34,377 nt of DNA from Pseudomonadota bacterium (GTDB lineage: Bacteria > Pseudomonadota > Gammaproteobacteria > Acidiferrobacterales > Acidiferrobacteraceae): positions 1 to 34,377 of the forward strand of contig JAJYDT010000022.1 in NCBI GenBank assembly GCA_021777335.1. The letters run 5' to 3'. This document shows positions 4,103 to 11,572 of the stretch, piece after piece. The notes below the pieces were generated by a model, which saw only the letters and a program-made list of their open reading frames with translations, was not told the DNA's origin and made no database searches. The translations under genes and the position numbers were made by a program. How positions within the stretch are numbered: the first letter of the stretch is position 1; the number at the start of each line of letters is the position of its first letter.

Positions 4103-4111
4103 TGCTAGAAT
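4103..4111 (+). promoter_or_regulatory. Extended -10 promoter of the flavoprotein gene
   Basis: TGCTAGAAT at 4103-4111 matches an extended -10 element (TGnTAnAAT type). No good -35 lies 17 bp upstream, which is usual for extended -10 promoters. Transcription would start near 4118, about 30 bases before the start codon at 4149. The 180 bp between fic and this site contain no gene I can support. Confidence 0.4.
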
Positions 4112-4148
4112 GCCGGTTTCGCCCCATCGGCTCCGAAGGTGGATGTGC

Positions 4149-5555
4149 ATGAACGATTTTGATCTGATCGTGATCGGCTCGGGGCCTGGCGGCTACCGGG
4201 CCGCCGTGCTCGGGGCATTGCGCGGATTGCGCGTGGCTATTGTGGAGAAGGCCGAGTGGGGCGGCTGCTGCCTGAATCGGGGCTGTGTGCCGAAGAAGGC
4301 GTGGTATCACACGGCTCGACTGCTTGTCGCGAGCCGGCATTTCGCTGAACGCGGGATTTCCGGTACGCTTCGCATTGATATAGGTACTGCCTGGGATCAC
4401 CAGCGTGCCGTTGTCACGAAGGTTCGTAACAGTTATCTCGACTATATGAAACGGCTTGGAGTCGCGCGCCACGAAGGGATGGCCGCCTTTGCCAGCAGTC
4501 GGCGGGTCGAGATCACCCGGGGGGCCGACCGGACAATGATCGAAGGCGCCCACTGTATCCTTGCGACCGGCGCGCGTCCTTATGTGCCCGAGATGTTTCA
4601 GGGCGTCTCGGCGCGTATTCTGACGACCGATGATCTGTATGACCGCCCGCCCCCGTCGGGCGACCAGGTGGCGATCGTCGGCGGCGGTGTGATCGCGACG
4701 GAATTCGCTTTCATTCTCACTCTGCTCGGCAAGAACGTCACCTGGCTCAGCCGGGGAGTCCCGCTCGCGCGCACGCGGTTCGGCGCGCAGGCGCGCCAGG
4801 GCCTGACTCGATCGCTTGCGGTCCATGGTATCAAGCCTGAGACACTGCGCCTCCGTGGCGCGGATGCCGATGGCACACAGGTTGTTTTGAGGTTCGAGGA
4901 TGCGGAACCGCGGCGGTTTGACTGGGTGCTCGTGGCGACAGGCCGGCGGCCGTTTACCGAAGGTTTGAACCTCCCTGGGGCCGGGGTCGGCATCGATGAA
5001 GAGGGCTTCATCGCAGTTGACGAGGGTCTCGAGACCGCCGCATCCGGCGTCTACGCGATCGGCGACTGTGTCGGGGGCGCGATGACGGCGAACCAGGCGC
5101 TGCACGACGCCGGTGTCGTCATCGGCAACGTGTTGGGCACGGACAGCGGTCCGCGCCTGCATCGGGCCCCCGAGAAGGTTCCCGAGGTTCTCTACAGCGC
5201 GCTTGAGATCGCCCGCATCGGGCTCGACGATGAGGGTGCCGAGGATGCGGGATTCGAACCCGCGATCGGTTTTTCGGCCTTCGAGACATCGCCGCGGGCG
5301 CTTGGCCAGGATGACCCCGAAGGATTTGTGCGCATCATCGGTGATATGGACAGCGGGCGCTTTCTGGGCGGAGAGGTCGTTGGGGCCGAGGCCGGCGAAC
5401 TGATCCATCTCCTCGCGATGTTGTCTGATCGGGACGGGCTCAGAACCCTGGCGCGGACGTCCTTTAACCATCCGGCGCGTGCTGAAGAGATACTGAATGC
5501 AGTTGAAACCCTCGCCAGCAAATGGAGTCTGACGGAGACTATCTTTGGTGGCTGA
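4149..5555 (+). CDS. Dihydrolipoamide dehydrogenase-like FAD/NAD(P) disulfide oxidoreductase
   Basis: This 468-residue class I pyridine nucleotide-disulfide oxidoreductase should pass electrons between NAD(P)H, FAD and a redox-active Cys pair. It has the N-terminal FAD fold GSGPGGYRAA, the redox pair C41-LNRG-C46 in GGCCLNRGCVPKK, the NAD fold GGGVIATE (Ala replaces the usual third Gly), the second FAD contact YAIGDC, and the C-terminal base in SFNHPARAEE. GCVPKK is more typical of glutathione reductases, whereas the overall layout is like Lpd. ATG 4149 is preceded by GAAGGTGG; in-frame ATGs at 4143 and 4110 are worse. No dehydrogenase-complex genes are near, so its substrate is unknown. Confidence 0.85.
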   Translation: MNDFDLIVIGSGPGGYRAAVLGALRGLRVAIVEKAEWGGCCLNRGCVPKKAWYHTARLLVASRHFAERGISGTLRIDIGTAWDHQRAVVTKVRNSYLDYMKRLGVARHEGMAAFASSRRVEITRGADRTMIEGAHCILATGARPYVPEMFQGVSARILTTDDLYDRPPPSGDQVAIVGGGVIATEFAFILTLLGKNVTWLSRGVPLARTRFGAQARQGLTRSLAVHGIKPETLRLRGADADGTQVVLRFEDAEPRRFDWVLVATGRRPFTEGLNLPGAGVGIDEEGFIAVDEGLETAASGVYAIGDCVGGAMTANQALHDAGVVIGNVLGTDSGPRLHRAPEKVPEVLYSALEIARIGLDDEGAEDAGFEPAIGFSAFETSPRALGQDDPEGFVRIIGDMDSGRFLGGEVVGAEAGELIHLLAMLSDRDGLRTLARTSFNHPARAEEILNAVETLASKWSLTETIFGG

Positions 5556-5583
5556 GGCGATTCCGGGTTGCAGTTTTCCGGTT

Positions 5584-5613
5584 TTGTCATATGGTTATCG
5601 GTATGGCTAGAAT
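5584..5613 (+). promoter_or_regulatory. Candidate sigma-70 promoter overlapping the start of the WYL gene
   Basis: TTGTCA (5584-5589) and TAGAAT (5608-5613) are separated by 18 bp, a good match to a housekeeping promoter. If real, the transcript starts near 5620, downstream of both ATGs I considered for the WYL gene. That would shift its start to the GTG at 5633. Confidence 0.35.
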
Positions 5614-6022
5614 AAAAGACGACGCGCCTTCAGTGAAGGTGCTGACCGCCGCGATCAAGCAGAAACGCAGGGTCTCGATCCACTACCGTGATCAGGCCCG
5701 CGCGCGGGTGATTGAACCGCATGCGATCTACACCGATGAGCACGGCGAGCTTATTGCAGACTGTTATCAGGTGCGTGGGTATTCATCCGCGGGCCGACCC
5801 GCACCGTTTTGGCGACCGTTCCGGGTGAAGAAGATTTCGAACGCGGAACTGCTGGATGAGCCATTCACGCCGCGTAACGGCGAGGGCTTCAATCCGGAAA
5901 AGCAGAAGTATCGCTTCGGTCTCGTGGCCATGGTTGGAGACAAGAACGCCTCGTTTGTGTTTCCCGAGGCACAGGGCGAGCCAATGGGCCCGTTTCTTCC
6001 CACGAAGAGCGGCCGGCGTTAG
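5591..6022 (+). CDS. Stand-alone WYL-domain protein
   Basis: The gene encodes a small basic protein of up to 143 residues. The segment VSIHYRDQARARVIEPHAIY, then LIADCYQVRGYS and FRPFRVKKI-like spacing (here WRPFRVKKIS), matches the WYL fold, an SH3-like domain thought to bind ligands or nucleic acid in transcription regulators. No helix-turn-helix precedes it, so it is a bare WYL domain with a short C-terminal tail. The start is uncertain: ATG 5591, ATG 5603 and GTG 5633 are all in frame, none has a strong ribosome binding site, and a promoter-like sequence overlaps the first two. It converges with the His-rich gene. Confidence 0.7.
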   Translation: MVIGMARIKDDAPSVKVLTAAIKQKRRVSIHYRDQARARVIEPHAIYTDEHGELIADCYQVRGYSSAGRPAPFWRPFRVKKISNAELLDEPFTPRNGEGFNPEKQKYRFGLVAMVGDKNASFVFPEAQGEPMGPFLPTKSGRR

Positions 6023-6287: not shown

Positions 6288-6500
6288 TCACCGGCTTGAT
6301 GCGTGATGGGTAGCGTAATGCTTTGCCGCTTCCTCACGGTAATGGGAGGCGTGGATGCTGTGCGCGTGCGCGAGATGCGCATGATGGGCTGCTTTGTCAT
6401 GCTGTCCGGCCTCATGATGTTTCGCGGCTTCGCGATGATGCTTGGCGGCCTCGGTGTGCTGTTTTTCTGCGTTTTTATGATGCTCTGCGCCTTCATGCAT
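6288..6500 (-). CDS. Small histidine-rich protein
   Basis: The product has 70 residues, of which 19 are His, with many Ala, Glu and Lys. Heptad-like units such as EAAKHHR and EAAKHHE repeat, and the whole chain is predicted to be helical with His clusters on one side. It has no signal peptide and no Cys. Similar His-rich small proteins occur in Proteobacteria without an established function; binding of metal ions or buffering of protons is an inference from composition. ATG 6500 is chosen because GGAG lies about 10 bases upstream. The frame stays open to 6578, but that extension looks unrelated. A hairpin terminator follows. Confidence 0.72.
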   Translation of the reverse strand: MHEGAEHHKNAEKQHTEAAKHHREAAKHHEAGQHDKAAHHAHLAHAHSIHASHYREEAAKHYATHHASSR

Positions 6501-7081
6501 AAAGTAGACTCCTTGTATCAAGATTGAACGGGAACCGTAGATATCCATACCAGCAGCGCTCGAATACCGGAGGGACAAATTAACGTAGGGACGCTGCCGT
6601 TATATGGTAGTCAGTCCGTTAATAACGAAAAAAGTTCACCAGACCGGGCAACGGGCCTGCGAAGCCCAGTGCCAGGCTCAGCGGAAAAAGGCGAAGAAAA
6701 TCCGGGGAGCCGGGTCTCGCGCTCTGTGCTCATTGGAATCCCCGGCAAAGACCGGATCAGTCCGGCCGCCAAGGCCTCGTGCATCGTGAAGGCAGCAAGC
6801 GGCAGATCGAAACCTCTCGTGGTGAGGTGGCGTACCGTGATCCTATGCCGGCCTTCGAGTGGCCTGCGTCTGGTGCATCGGCACACGCAACAGACAGATG
6901 GATCGCACAGACACCGACTGACGGCGAAGGCAGGATGCTGCGGACTCCGTATGTTCGGGGTGCGGACGCTCGCGCCCCCGGTCGAGCCGATTCAGGGATT
7001 CCGCTCCGTCACGCCGCTTCAACGTCCTGTGTTTCGATGATACGACAACAAACGGATCGATAGGCTGAGGTCCGACAGACC
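6501..7081. other. Gene-free stretch of about 580 bp
   Basis: Between the divergently placed His-rich gene and the 3' end of ptsI I see only short unsupported frames with no recognisable product. There is no RNA gene, and no clear terminator follows ptsI. The promoter of the His-rich gene should be in the first 100 bp, but no convincing -35/-10 pair is visible. Confidence 0.5.
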
Positions 7082-8839
7082 CTAGGAAAGATTGGTGTTC
7101 TCCGGGGAGGCTCGTTCGTTCAGTTCGTCGACCAATGCGTGCAGCGCCTCCATCCGCCCCGCTTGCAGCACATTTGCCGCAAACCCCGCGAGTTCGTCTA
7201 TGTCGCTGCTACGGACGATCTGCTTGATTTCGAGCAGTGCGGCGGGGTGCATGCTGAATTCTGTCAGACCAAGCCCGAGCAGCAATCGCGTATAACGCGC
7301 ATCGCCCGCCATCTCACCGCACATAGCGACAGGTATGCCAGCCCCCCGTCCGGCGTCAATGGTGGTTTTTATGAGCCGTATCACCGAGGGGTGCAACGGA
7401 TCATAGAGATAATTGACCGTGTCATCGATCCGGTCGATCGCGAGCGTGTACTGGATCAGGTCGTTCGTCCCGATTGAAAGGAAATCCAGATGCGGCGCAA
7501 ACAGATCCGCCGCGATCGCTGCCGCCGGCACCTCGATCATGCCACCGACAGGAAGTCGCTCAGCGAACCGCACCCCATTATCGGACAGTTCGGCCTTGAC
7601 CTCCTTGATGAGGTCCAGTACGCGGAACACCTCACCCACATTGGAGAGCATCGGGATCATGAGGCGCACGGGGCCATGCGCGGACGAGCGGACGATGGCG
7701 CGTAATTGGGGCCGGAACAGCGAGGTGTCATTGAGGCACAGGCGCACAGCGCGCAAACCAAGTGCGGGGTTGACCGCCTGGCTTGAACCTATACCATTTA
7801 CCTGCTTGTCGCCGCCGAGATCAAGCGTTCGTATCGTCACCGGTTTTCCGGACAAGGCGCGAATGACGCGCGAGTACGCTTCGTACTGCTCCTCTTCGCC
7901 GGGCGGTTCTTTTCGGTTCATGAACAGAAACTCGGTCCGGTACAGACCGATGCCGTCAGCACCCACCTGCAGCACCGCCTTGATGTCGTCCGGTAGCTCA
8001 ATATTCGCCATCAGACTGATCCGCTGGCCATCGGCGCTCACGGACTCGCTGGTTTTCAGGAGTTCGAGATGATGCCGGAAGCGGTCGATGTCGCTTTTTC
8101 GGCGGCGGAATTCGGCCAGGATTTCCCGTTCTGCCGCGACCAGAAGCACGCCCCGCTTGCCATCAACGATCAATTCCTCCTCGGTGCGCACATACTGTGT
8201 CGCGCCATGGACGCCGACGATTGCCGGGATATCGAGGCTTCGTGCAAGGATCGCAGTATGGGATATGGGGCCCCCCAGCGTGGTGACGAATGCACTGATA
8301 TTGCGGTGCTTGAGCAGGACGGCGTCGGCCGGGGTGAGATCAGTCGCGACAACGATGTAGCCGCTCAGGTCTGTTGACAGTCGCTCGTGTTCGTCGTCTC
8401 CCGGCGTCATCAGGTTCCTAAGGATCCGGTCGACGACCTGAATAACATCCGTTTTGCGGTTCCTGAGGTAGGGGTCTTCCATCTTTTCGAAGACATCGAC
8501 GAGCCGTTTGCTCTGGGTATCGAGCGCGAGCTCCGCGTTCCACTGCCGCTCCCGGATATTCTTGACGGGTTCCTCGGAGATCATCGTATCCTGCAGGATA
8601 AGCAGGTGCGTATCGATGAAGCTTGCGGTCTCGGCGGGTGCGGTGGAGGGAATGTGGTTTCGTATGCGCTGGAGCTGTGCCCGTGACCGTTCGACTGCCT
8701 GCAGGAACCGCTCCACCTCGTCCTCGATGAGATGTCGCGGCAGCACGTATTCCGGGACTTCAGGTCGGTCCCGCTGGAGCACGAAGGCTTTACCGATGCT
8801 GATTCCGCTGCTGACACCCTTTCCGTGGAGTGAAAGCAT
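7082..8839 (-). CDS. ptsI: Phosphoenolpyruvate-protein phosphotransferase (PTS enzyme I)
   Basis: Enzyme I takes phosphate from PEP onto its own His and passes it to HPr. The 585-residue length is standard. The N-terminal HPr-binding and phospho-His domains include GGPISHTAILAR with the active-site His194. The C-terminal PEP-binding barrel has LYRTEFLF, the signature GTNDLIQYTLAIDR and the conserved Cys in AMCGEMAGD. ATG 8839 overlaps the HPr stop codon as TGATG, indicating translational coupling; a GTG one codon upstream is also in frame. It has no GAF domain, so it is not EI-Ntr (PtsP). No sugar-specific EIIBC lies in the window, so the role is probably regulatory. Confidence 0.95.
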   Translation of the reverse strand: MLSLHGKGVSSGISIGKAFVLQRDRPEVPEYVLPRHLIEDEVERFLQAVERSRAQLQRIRNHIPSTAPAETASFIDTHLLILQDTMISEEPVKNIRERQWNAELALDTQSKRLVDVFEKMEDPYLRNRKTDVIQVVDRILRNLMTPGDDEHERLSTDLSGYIVVATDLTPADAVLLKHRNISAFVTTLGGPISHTAILARSLDIPAIVGVHGATQYVRTEEELIVDGKRGVLLVAAEREILAEFRRRKSDIDRFRHHLELLKTSESVSADGQRISLMANIELPDDIKAVLQVGADGIGLYRTEFLFMNRKEPPGEEEQYEAYSRVIRALSGKPVTIRTLDLGGDKQVNGIGSSQAVNPALGLRAVRLCLNDTSLFRPQLRAIVRSSAHGPVRLMIPMLSNVGEVFRVLDLIKEVKAELSDNGVRFAERLPVGGMIEVPAAAIAADLFAPHLDFLSIGTNDLIQYTLAIDRIDDTVNYLYDPLHPSVIRLIKTTIDAGRGAGIPVAMCGEMAGDARYTRLLLGLGLTEFSMHPAALLEIKQIVRSSDIDELAGFAANVLQAGRMEALHALVDELNERASPENTNLS

Positions 8840-9108
8840 CACTCGTCCTCGCCAAAGCGATTGGCAATCAACTGGGAAAGTTCTCTGATCGCGCCGTCCT
8901 CGTCGGGCCCATCAGCGCACAAGGTCAGCTCAATGCCGGTCCCGGCCGCAAGCATCATGATGCCCATGATGCTTTTCCCATTCACCTGCCGCCCGCTGCG
9001 CGCGAGTGTCACGCTCGCTGTGAACCCGCTTGCAAGGTGCACGAATTTGGCGGACGCACGCGCGTGCATGCCAAGTTTGTTGATGATCGTGACCGGAACG
9101 CACTTCAT
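8839..9108 (-). CDS. ptsH: HPr family phosphocarrier protein
   Basis: This 89-residue phosphocarrier moves phosphate from enzyme I to EIIA proteins. The catalytic site is intact: NKLGMHARA with His15. The regulatory site GKSIMGIM has Ser46, the residue that HPr kinase modifies. Both sites being intact fits the hprK gene three genes upstream. ATG 9108 overlaps the stop codon of the EIIA gene (TAATG). The frame is open to 9135, but that would lengthen the protein beyond the family. It is of the small HPr/NPr type found with rpoN. Confidence 0.94.
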   Translation of the reverse strand: MKCVPVTIINKLGMHARASAKFVHLASGFTASVTLARSGRQVNGKSIMGIMMLAAGTGIELTLCADGPDEDGAIRELSQLIANRFGEDE

Positions 9109-9518
9109 TAGCGCCGAATCTCGGCATAACAGCAATCCGTAGCACAGAGGATCCCTTCCACACCTCCCTTGAGGGCCTTATCAATCAGGTCACTCATCTT
9201 GAGGGAGCGGTAATTGAGTACCCTGATCACCATGGGCAGGTTAACACCTGCGACCAGTTCCACACGGCCGCGGCTGAGGATCCGGCAGGCGACATTGATA
9301 TGGGTCGCGCCATAGATGTCGGCCAGGATCAGAACCCCGTCGCCTGAATCCATTTTTGCGACCTCGCGTTCCATTGCCTCCGCAAGCTGTTCCGGGGGCT
9401 GATCATAGTTGACGGGGAAGGCAGCGAGGTTTGGCGGACAGGAGCCGAGTACATGCTCGACCGCGCGCACGAGACCGATACCGACGTCCTTCTGGGCCAG
9501 GATGAGTATCCCGATCAT
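9108..9518 (-). CDS. Mannose-type PTS EIIA protein lacking the phosphorylated His
   Basis: The gene encodes a 136-residue EIIA-Man (PF03610-type) domain. Conserved parts are the N-terminal strand MIGILIL, the DIYGAT loop and AGVNLPMV. In the family the first strand is followed by T/A-H-G, and that His accepts phosphate from HPr. Here the codons read GCC CAG AAG, giving A-Q9-K, so the acceptor is Gln. In addition the usual GATPSN loop reads GATHIN, which puts a His at residue 73. The chain has no IIB domain. ATG 9518 overlaps the rapZ stop codon (ATGA). It may act as a non-phosphorylated partner or sensor; catalysis in the usual way looks impossible. Confidence 0.88.
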   Translation of the reverse strand: MIGILILAQKDVGIGLVRAVEHVLGSCPPNLAAFPVNYDQPPEQLAEAMEREVAKMDSGDGVLILADIYGATHINVACRILSRGRVELVAGVNLPMVIRVLNYRSLKMSDLIDKALKGGVEGILCATDCCYAEIRR

Positions 9519-10438
9519 GAAAGTTCCCGGTGCCGGATCTGTGTTTTGAACCCAAGACCAGAAAAGTGGGCCGCGAGTCTGTCGGCGAGATACACCGAGC
9601 GATGCTGGCCTCCTGTGCAGCCGATGGCGATGGTCATATAGGTGCGCTGTTCGCGCTCGAATCCCGGTAGCCATTCAGTGAGGAACGCGCACAGCTGTTC
9701 GAACATCATGCGGACCTGTTCGTGTTGCTCCAGGAAGGCCTTGACGGGGGGCTCAAGCCCGGTGAACCTGCGCAACTCCTGTTGCCAATATGGGTTCGGC
9801 AGGCAGCGTACATCAAATACGTAGTCCGCGTCCAAAGGTGTCCCGTGTTTGAAGCCGAATGACTGGAAGAGCAGGGTCATTCCCGACGTCTCTGATCCTT
9901 GAGCGAAATCCCGGATGATCTGCCGCAGCGCATGCGGTGTCGTGTGCGTCGTGTCGATCCGCCGATCGGCGTGGAATGACAGTGGTTCAAGCAGCTGTTT
10001 CTCACGACGTATACCCTCGAGCAGGGGTGTGTCCTTGTCGGTCAGCGGATGCTTGCGGCGTGTTTCCTTGAATCGTTTGACGAGCACTGATTCCTCTGCT
10101 TCCAGGAACACGATTTTGTAGCGTACGTCGAGCAGTTTCAGTGCTTCCAGACTTGCGGGAGTGTTGGCCAGAAAGAAGCGGTTGCGCGCGTCTATGCCGA
10201 CGGCGGCATTGTGCACGCCCCCCCCTTCCATGCTGAGCAGCTCATTGGCGAAGTGCGGCAGCAGGCCCGAGGGGAGGTTGTCAATACAGTAGAACCCAAG
10301 ATCCTCAAGCGCCTGCAAGGCAATACTTTTCCCGGAGCCGGACAGGCCGCTGACGACAAACAGGTTCATCAGTTTTCGTGGGAGATCCCGGCCTTCAGGC
10401 CGGGGAGGGGCGGCGTATGACGCATTGACCTCGCCCAT
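9515..10438 (-). CDS. rapZ: RNase adapter protein RapZ
   Basis: RapZ is a nucleotide-binding protein that in E. coli delivers the small RNA GlmZ to RNase E and so controls glucosamine-6-phosphate synthase. The Walker A motif GLSGSGKS lies at the start of the core, with GFYCIDNLP after it and the C-terminal GCTGGQHRSV signature. From the internal ATG at 10369 the protein would have 284 residues, the exact E. coli length. However, ATG 10438 has a much better ribosome binding site (GAGAGGGGGA, 6 bases before), so I chose it; it adds 23 residues. It is followed with a 4-base overlap by the EIIA gene. Confidence 0.93.
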   Translation of the reverse strand: MGEVNASYAAPPRPEGRDLPRKLMNLFVVSGLSGSGKSIALQALEDLGFYCIDNLPSGLLPHFANELLSMEGGGVHNAAVGIDARNRFFLANTPASLEALKLLDVRYKIVFLEAEESVLVKRFKETRRKHPLTDKDTPLLEGIRREKQLLEPLSFHADRRIDTTHTTPHALRQIIRDFAQGSETSGMTLLFQSFGFKHGTPLDADYVFDVRCLPNPYWQQELRRFTGLEPPVKAFLEQHEQVRMMFEQLCAFLTEWLPGFEREQRTYMTIAIGCTGGQHRSVYLADRLAAHFSGLGFKTQIRHRELS

Positions 10439-10621: not shown

Positions 10622-11572
10622 TTACCGTTTGGGAGCCGTCATCAGATCCTGCTGTCTTTTCATGAATTCCTCAAGCGGGTTGATGCCGCGCGTCCGGAGA
10701 ATATGGCTCCGCGTTGCGGTTTCTACGAGCACGGCAAGGTTGCGGCCCGGGCCTACAAACAGGACTACTTCGGGAATCTCAACCCCAAGGATCGTGCGCG
10801 TCAACTGCTCGGCCTGGAGCCGGTCGATCACGGTGGTGTTATAAGAGGCCAGTTCCTCCAGCCGGACGATGAGGTGGAGAATCTTGGCGCGCCTCACTGC
10901 CGTATCCCCGAACATGGCGCGAACGTTCAGGATCCCGAGACCCCGCACTTCCAGGAAATCGTTCAGGAGGTCTGGGCATCGCCCCTCAAGATCGTCGGTT
11001 CCCAGCCGGGAAAACTCAATGGCATCGTCGCCGATCAGGCGATGGTTGCGACTGAGCAGCTCGAGCGCAAGCTCACTCTTGCCGATGCCGCTTTCGCCGG
11101 TGATAAATACCCCTATGCTCATTACCTCCATGTACACACCGTGCAACGTCACCCGCTCGGCAAGGGCACGGGCGAGATAGTACTGGAGATCATGTATGAC
11201 GCGCGGGCTCGGCAGGGGCGATGAAAGCAGGGGCATCCCGTGTGACTCAGACGCGGCGATGAAGTCCTGCGGGATCGTGCCGCAGTCCGCAAGGATCACG
11301 AGCGCCGAAGTGTCGCAGGAAAAAAGTTCGTCCACCGCCCTCTGGTGCCGCGCGGGCGTCATCCGCGCGATATACTCAACCTCTCCTGTCCCCAGCACCT
11401 GCACCCTGTTCGGGTGTACGTAATTGAGGTGTCCCACGAGCGCCATTCCGGGAAAGCGGGCGGTCGCGGGCTCAAGCAGCTTGACGCCACCCTGGCGACC
11501 ACTTATCCACACGAGCCCGAGCGCGCCTTGCTGCGCCTCAAATACGTCCTGGGCAGTGAGAACGATGTTCAT
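10622..11572 (-). CDS. hprK: HPr kinase/phosphorylase
   Basis: This bifunctional enzyme adds phosphate to, and removes it from, HPr Ser46. It has 316 residues. The N-terminal regulatory domain is followed by the Walker A motif GESGIGKS at 159-166, a conserved His in LHGVYMEV just before it, and the family signature LEVRGLGILNV around 207-217. In many Proteobacteria it stands in an rpoN-hpf-ptsN-hprK-rapZ cluster. Here ptsN is missing: only 90 bp separate hprK from hpf. The HPr encoded downstream keeps Ser46, so kinase and target are both present. Confidence 0.94.
   Translation of the reverse strand: MNIVLTAQDVFEAQQGALGLVWISGRQGGVKLLEPATARFPGMALVGHLNYVHPNRVQVLGTGEVEYIARMTPARHQRAVDELFSCDTSALVILADCGTIPQDFIAASESHGMPLLSSPLPSPRVIHDLQYYLARALAERVTLHGVYMEVMSIGVFITGESGIGKSELALELLSRNHRLIGDDAIEFSRLGTDDLEGRCPDLLNDFLEVRGLGILNVRAMFGDTAVRRAKILHLIVRLEELASYNTTVIDRLQAEQLTRTILGVEIPEVVLFVGPGRNLAVLVETATRSHILRTRGINPLEEFMKRQQDLMTAPKR

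Follow-up and report, generated by a model that had tools for sequence, protein, structure and literature searches.

A relocated phosphohistidine as the probable explanation for the glutamine at the active site of EIIA-Man-like proteins in Acidiferrobacterales

Mannose-type EIIA proteins receive phosphate on a histidine that follows the first strand of the fold, and the discovery of a copy which lacks this histidine raises the question of where the phosphate goes. Such a protein is encoded at positions 9108–9518 (minus strand) of the window, by which we mean the whole stretch of 34,377 nucleotides that was analysed. The original prediction left two answers, transfer to a new histidine or conversion into a non-phosphorylated regulator. 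Because His9 has been lost and another histidine gained within the pocket that held it, it is probable that the phosphate site moved inside the protein, from residue 9 to residue 73, and did not disappear.

The EIIA-Man-like protein and its operon

The protein is 136 amino acids long (translation MIGILILAQKDVG...ADIYGATHINVACR...GVNLPM) and belongs to the EIIA-Man family, as it scores 60.6 bits against the Pfam profile PF03610 (EIIA-man; cut-off 21.4). Its genome contains no other PF03610 match. Its score against NCBIfam TIGR00824 (mannose/fructose/sorbose transporter IIA) is 48.6, below the cut-off of 98.35. An AF2 model built on a 24-row alignment (pLDDT 88.7) matches E. coli ManX (1pdo) over 121 residues with a Z of 17.1 and a deviation of 1.9 Å. 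The ten top VIA matches are all EIIA-Man-type chains (Z 18.2–15.1, one of them in a designed cage), in agreement with an EIIA-Man fold, and the matches beyond EIIA-Man are DegV, DhaM and FakB at a Z of about 10. No solved structure of a protein with histidine at residue 73 was found among the PDB matches, not each of which was inspected at this residue.

Codon 9 (9492–9494) is CAG, which confirms that glutamine, in the sequence A-Q-K, occupies the aligned column of the canonical phosphorylated histidine (His10 of E. coli ManX). The predicted gain of a histidine at residue 73 is equally borne out: codon 73 (9300–9302) is CAT, in a column where homologues carry proline, and His73 is the putative new phosphate acceptor. 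Three other residues of the canonical site are present in the window protein, namely Asp67 (9318–9320), the partner of the active-site histidine, Thr72 (9303–9305) and Asn75. According to the available part of PMC7587183, the His10 imidazole of E. coli EIIA-Man has Gly71, Ser72, Pro73 and other residues around it, and the phosphoryl group is held by Ser72. The helix in our model begins at residue 72, and from this and the alignment to 1pdo His73 should be located by the phosphate pocket. A second candidate acceptor, His22 (9453–9455), is considered below. Residue 10 (9489–9491) also varies with the site: it is lysine or arginine in 33 of the 51 homologues with His73 alone, versus glycine, asparagine or aspartate in 160 of the 216 with His9 and Pro73. 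This might possibly bring a new charge near the phosphate.

The gene lies in a minus-strand series in the order rpoN, hpf, hprK, rapZ, EIIA, HPr, EI. HPr kinase/phosphorylase (hprK, 10622–11572) is identified by PF07475/PF02603 and by a TIGR00679 score above the cut-off, and rapZ (9515–10438) by PF22740/PF03668 and NF003828, again above the cut-off. HPr (ptsH, 8839–9108; PF00381) has both His15 and Ser46 intact, and Enzyme I (ptsI, 7082–8842; TIGR01417 553.8 bits, above the cut-off) retains its active histidine in GGPISHTAI, at residue 195 as counted from the GTG start. The EIIA start overlaps rapZ (ATGA) and the EIIA stop overlaps HPr (TAATG); the gene is therefore coupled on both sides, as had been claimed. 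The clustering of hprK, HPr and EI is that of operons with a regulatory EIIA-Man-like protein (PtsM/ManX), and relatives are similar in this respect. Further along the window lie a 96-aa open reading frame rich in histidine and alanine with repeated KHH/AHH motifs and no Pfam or NCBIfam match (6288–6578, minus strand), an open reading frame with a weak WYL domain match (5522–6022, plus strand; 25.2 bits, cut-off 21.8) and a dihydrolipoyl dehydrogenase-like flavoprotein (4110–5555, plus strand; TIGR01350 295.9 bits, below the cut-off of 408.8).

Residues 9 and 73 in relatives

In the family of the window's genome, a match was obtained for 17 of 18 genomes (its own included), each of the 17 with A-Q at residues 8–9 and GATH at 70–73. 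Conservation of the glutamine across a clade, proposed as a check, is thus found at the family level, and none of these close relatives carries the His9 that would have pointed to a private change. In the order Acidiferrobacterales 57 genomes were searched, of which 52 gave a match and five gave none. Among the 52, 48 combine a residue other than histidine at position 9 with His73 (a state hereafter written X9/H73, and present in nine family codes), three carry both histidines (G047, G042 and G041) and one has His9 and Pro73 (G045), so that His9 occurs in four of 52 at this wider level. Residue 9 is replaced by Q, E, D, Y, F, T or L, and by P in the family f116. Therefore the suggestion that a single base change from a histidine codon explains the glutamine, with which CAG agrees, is too narrow, since the loss of His9 is common to an order and the residue at position 9 is varied.

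A wider sample of 337 loci yielded 310 EIIA rows and 276 distinct sequences; the 27 loci without an EIIA match at E 1e-4 include L043 of G204, which had been fetched by a Pfam profile, and stray motif matches. The contig scan retained the best 80 of 573 confirmed places. In the 276 sequences, residues 9 and 73 are H9/P73 in 216, X9/H73 in 51 (residue 9 being Q in 33, E in seven, Y in four, F and P in two each, and D, T and L in one each), H9/H73 in five and otherwise in four (one each of H9/Q73, H9/A73, R9/Q73 and Y9/S73). Histidine is accordingly present at one position or the other in 274, and two sequences lack both. Four of the 218 genomes of the class with a PF03610 match belong to the order; 154 of the other 214 were read, together with three from the order searches, and those with the lowest-scoring matches fall mostly outside the read set. 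These 157 genomes comprise 148 H9/P73, three X9/H73, two H9/H73 and four others.

Two families outside the order carry His73. In f116 (four genomes of its order sampled), two proteins are P9/H73 and two are H9/H73. In f114 one protein is Q9/H73 (G163; L229 4001–4462, minus strand), another is H9/Q73 (G279; L228 1263–1709, minus strand) and a third is R9/Q73 (G732; L234). Glutamine and histidine are thus swapped between two genera of f114, and this reciprocal pair is placed far from the window's clade in the tree.

The sampled genomes were also searched at the DNA level for the motif D-x-[YF]-G-x-x-H-x-N, with W-S-N at residue 72, a pattern that misses other residue choices. It matched in 16 of 369 genomes of the class. 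Eight of these matches are EIIA (four in the order, three in f116, one in f114) and the other eight, on visual inspection, belong to reading frames that do not resemble EIIA. The reversed control pattern gave 18 matches in the same 369 genomes by our own count, so stray matches are to be expected. Among 329 genomes of the phylum 17 matched (control 10, own count), and none of the 16 beyond the window's own looked like EIIA.

The 51 X9/H73 proteins are divergent, with a lowest pairwise identity of 25%. Their invariant residues are D67, G70, H73, N75, G91 and M96, and column 9 ranks only 82nd of 124 in conservation; as the sets are defined by residues 9 and 73, the informative part is that residue 9 drifts across divergent relatives and residue 73 does not. 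The 216 H9/P73 proteins share D67, G70, G91 and M96 as invariant residues besides the two defining columns. Asp67 is found in every member of both sets (51/51 and 216/216), and residue 72 is serine or threonine in all 51 X9/H73 proteins. The only other frequent histidine in the X9/H73 set is His22.

A tree was built from RapZ, EIIA (minus columns 9 and 73), HPr and part of EI, using the 106 of 176 rows that passed a filter for coverage and near-copies. In it Acidiferrobacterales groups with f116 in a single clade (SH-aLRT 100), and 41 of the 42 rows of this clade have His73. The His73 label requires three changes on this tree versus an average of 32.6 for shuffled labels, with four rows of other states uncounted. 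When the EIIA columns are left out altogether (55 rows, f114 omitted), the same clade is recovered with SH-aLRT 96; the His73 label then needs two changes and the presence or absence of histidine at residue 9 needs five. The H9/P73 genome G045 lies inside the His73 clade, beside the double-His loci L034 and L118, and its EIIA is most similar to those of members of Acidiferrobacterales. A grouping of the His73 rows without G045 is rejected with p-AU 0.009, a value which is optimistic because the 22 rows were picked after viewing the tree. Misbinning of the 3.7 kb G045 contig from outside the order was considered and is disfavoured, since its RapZ, HPr and EI group within the order; it could still come from another member of Acidiferrobacterales. 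The simplest account of these comparisons would be one gain of His73 at the base of the clade, repeated loss or regain of histidine at residue 9, and a single reversion to His9/Pro73.

Where the phosphate may go

The relay upstream of EIIA is kept in the X9/H73 proteins. HPr His15 and Ser46 are present in all 50 rows having an HPr match and the active histidine of EI in all 47 rows covering the residue, two further EI matches not covering it. Wherever rapZ was matched (50 of the 51 rows), it lies directly upstream of EIIA; within the 8-kb locus of G163 no rapZ match was found, so the neighbourhood of that gene differs.

A search for EIIA proteins of the families PF03610 and PF00359 (PtsN) gave no PtsN match in the window's genome, which is 97.84% complete in 164 contigs, nor in any of the 18 genomes of its family or in 38 of the 57 of the order. 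Many of these genomes are drafts, so that the absence falls short of proof; one member of the window's family with no PtsN match, G007, is a single contig. EIIA could be read in 34 of the 38, and all 34 keep histidine at residue 9 or 73, 32 of them His73 alone. Where PtsN is lacking, the search of these two EIIA families leaves the EIIA-Man-like protein as the sole acceptor. Each of 11 genomes examined from four further families carries PtsN. So do 16 of the order's X9/H73 genomes and all three outside it, and in these 19 the relay consequently has another acceptor.

We consider it probable, at roughly 0.7, that the window EIIA still functions as a terminal phosphoacceptor in a regulatory PTS, with His73 taking the phosphate. 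Phosphate would pass from PEP to EI (His195), to HPr (His15) and then to His73 of EIIA in place of residue 9. Residue 73 is predicted where the helix that follows beta-3 begins, adjoining Thr72 and the place of the old imidazole, so it could take the phosphate with HPr docking unchanged. We infer that His73 is phosphorylated and placed in the pocket of the window protein, and that a target in the cell is regulated by the change of state, in line with the proposal for the EIIA-Man-like protein of Brucella. The move may have passed through double-His forms, with residue 9 afterwards freed from constraint. The intact histidines of EI and HPr, the kept pocket residues and the lack of a PtsN match in 38 genomes of the order favour relocation, as do the Q9/H73 and H9/Q73 pair of f114 and the position of G045 inside the His73 clade. 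Between the two answers offered originally, the balance thus tilts to a new histidine and away from a non-phosphorylated regulator, judging from His73 in 51 of 51 proteins while residue 9 drifts, the double-His forms and the mere two of 276 homologues that lack both.

It is nevertheless conceivable, though unlikely, that the EIIA is no longer phosphorylated and acts as a binding regulator, His73 having been recruited for a ligand, a metal or a partner. The canonical histidine has gone in 48 of the 52 genomes of the order, and G383 (Y9/S73) and G732 (R9/Q73) lack both histidines yet retain EI and HPr beside the gene, so an unphosphorylated form is possible; both also carry PtsN. The EIIA of G383 (L338 3077–3445, minus strand) is situated between rapZ and HPr/EI, and its relative G286 is His9/Pro73; it is a candidate for a truly non-phosphorylated EIIA. 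However, the new histidine stands beside Ser/Thr72 with Asp67 kept, the active histidines of EI and HPr are intact though PtsN was not matched in 32 of the order's X9/H73 genomes, and in G045 His9 is present where His73 is gone.

Slightly less likely still is that the phosphate goes to His22, which would probably face the site from the adjoining subunit, and that His73 assists. His22 is enriched, being present in 48 of 51 X9/H73 and five of five H9/H73 proteins versus 58 of 216 H9/P73, and its E. coli equivalent by eye, Met23, lines the site from the other subunit in the part of PMC7587183 available. However, those 58 proteins have His22 while keeping His9, and three X9/H73 rows do without His22 whereas none is without His73, as the definition of the set demands. 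A private mutation, decay or a sequencing or assembly error in the window's genome, for which it could be said that CAG is one base from a histidine codon, is rejected because the trait is shared across the order, with Gln9 in all matching family genomes and X9/H73 in nine family codes; the claim that the gene has not decayed holds for the same reason.

Returning to His73 as the acceptor, the phosphohistidine may have hopped between backbone positions 9 and 73 of one pocket more than once, a proposal that we regard as evenly balanced: at the root of Acidiferrobacterales plus f116 (9 to 73), separately inside f114 (in either direction) and in G045 (73 to 9). Double-His or swapped forms are found beside each proposed hop. 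The G045 state is likely a reversal, and that in f114 is apparently an independent swap. If such a hop is true, the new site, with its imidazole at a helix N-terminus next to serine or threonine, would resemble the His15 site of HPr. It could alter how long the phosphate lasts or which way it flows, perhaps with the greatest consequence for those genomes of the order that lack PtsN.

The phosphorylated histidine is treated as fixed in the EIIA-Man family, so annotation would either label proteins of this kind ordinary EIIA-Man or write them off as dead copies. Should His73 be the acceptor, they represent a natural and traceable relocation of a phosphorelay residue with donor and pocket unchanged, and how an essential catalytic residue moves becomes directly testable by a two-residue swap. 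Sequenced genomes include examples of each state, from the starting one through double-His to the finished and the apparently reversed.

Comparison with known systems

The window protein shares its fold, Asp67, Ser/Thr72, Asn75 and the GVN-PM segment with EIIA-Man of the mannose PTS (E. coli ManX, 1pdo; S. pneumoniae EIIA-Man, PMC7587183), from which it differs by glutamine for the phosphorylated His10 and histidine for Pro73. Small stand-alone EIIA proteins clustered with HPr are likewise described, in the parts of the papers available, for Brucella (PMC2937029), Rhizobium (ManX, PMC13104625) and Xanthomonas (PtsN-Man, PMC6916182); hprK and EI are also in the cluster in the window and in Xanthomonas, where the same kinds of genes occur without EIIB/EIIC (PMC6916182). 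In Brucella the protein receives phosphate from P~NPr and binds SucA (PMC2937029, in part), and in Rhizobium ManX and PtsN are terminal acceptors whose phosphorylated state lowers TCA activity (PMC13104625, a review, in part). By analogy the window EIIA would be expected to convey the PEP/HPr state to some target in metabolism. It is distinguished from the Brucella protein by an acceptor position that appears to have changed, and by PtsN not being found in the window's family. Deletion of the homologue (by annotation) in Xanthomonas campestris gave no obvious phenotype in the assays described in the available part of PMC6916182, which by analogy would count against the reading with His73 as acceptor.

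IIA-Man in such operons is mentioned in PMC2405797, and the changed histidine is absent from the parts of that paper seen. Among the matches listed in our literature search, from which subscription papers were mostly excluded, none reported by title or abstract opening a relocated or missing histidine of EIIA-Man. Residue migration itself is known from nucleases, as in the GIY-YIG relatives of R.Hpy188I and in the PD-(D/E)XK enzymes cited with them (PMC2630997, in part), and none of those matches reported it for EIIA-Man. The nuclease cases likewise place a key residue at another backbone position and in a similar spatial place. In contrast to them, the residue here is the presumed phosphohistidine of a phosphorelay, and it comes with double-His forms, with a pair in which the two residues are exchanged, and with what is likely a reversal.
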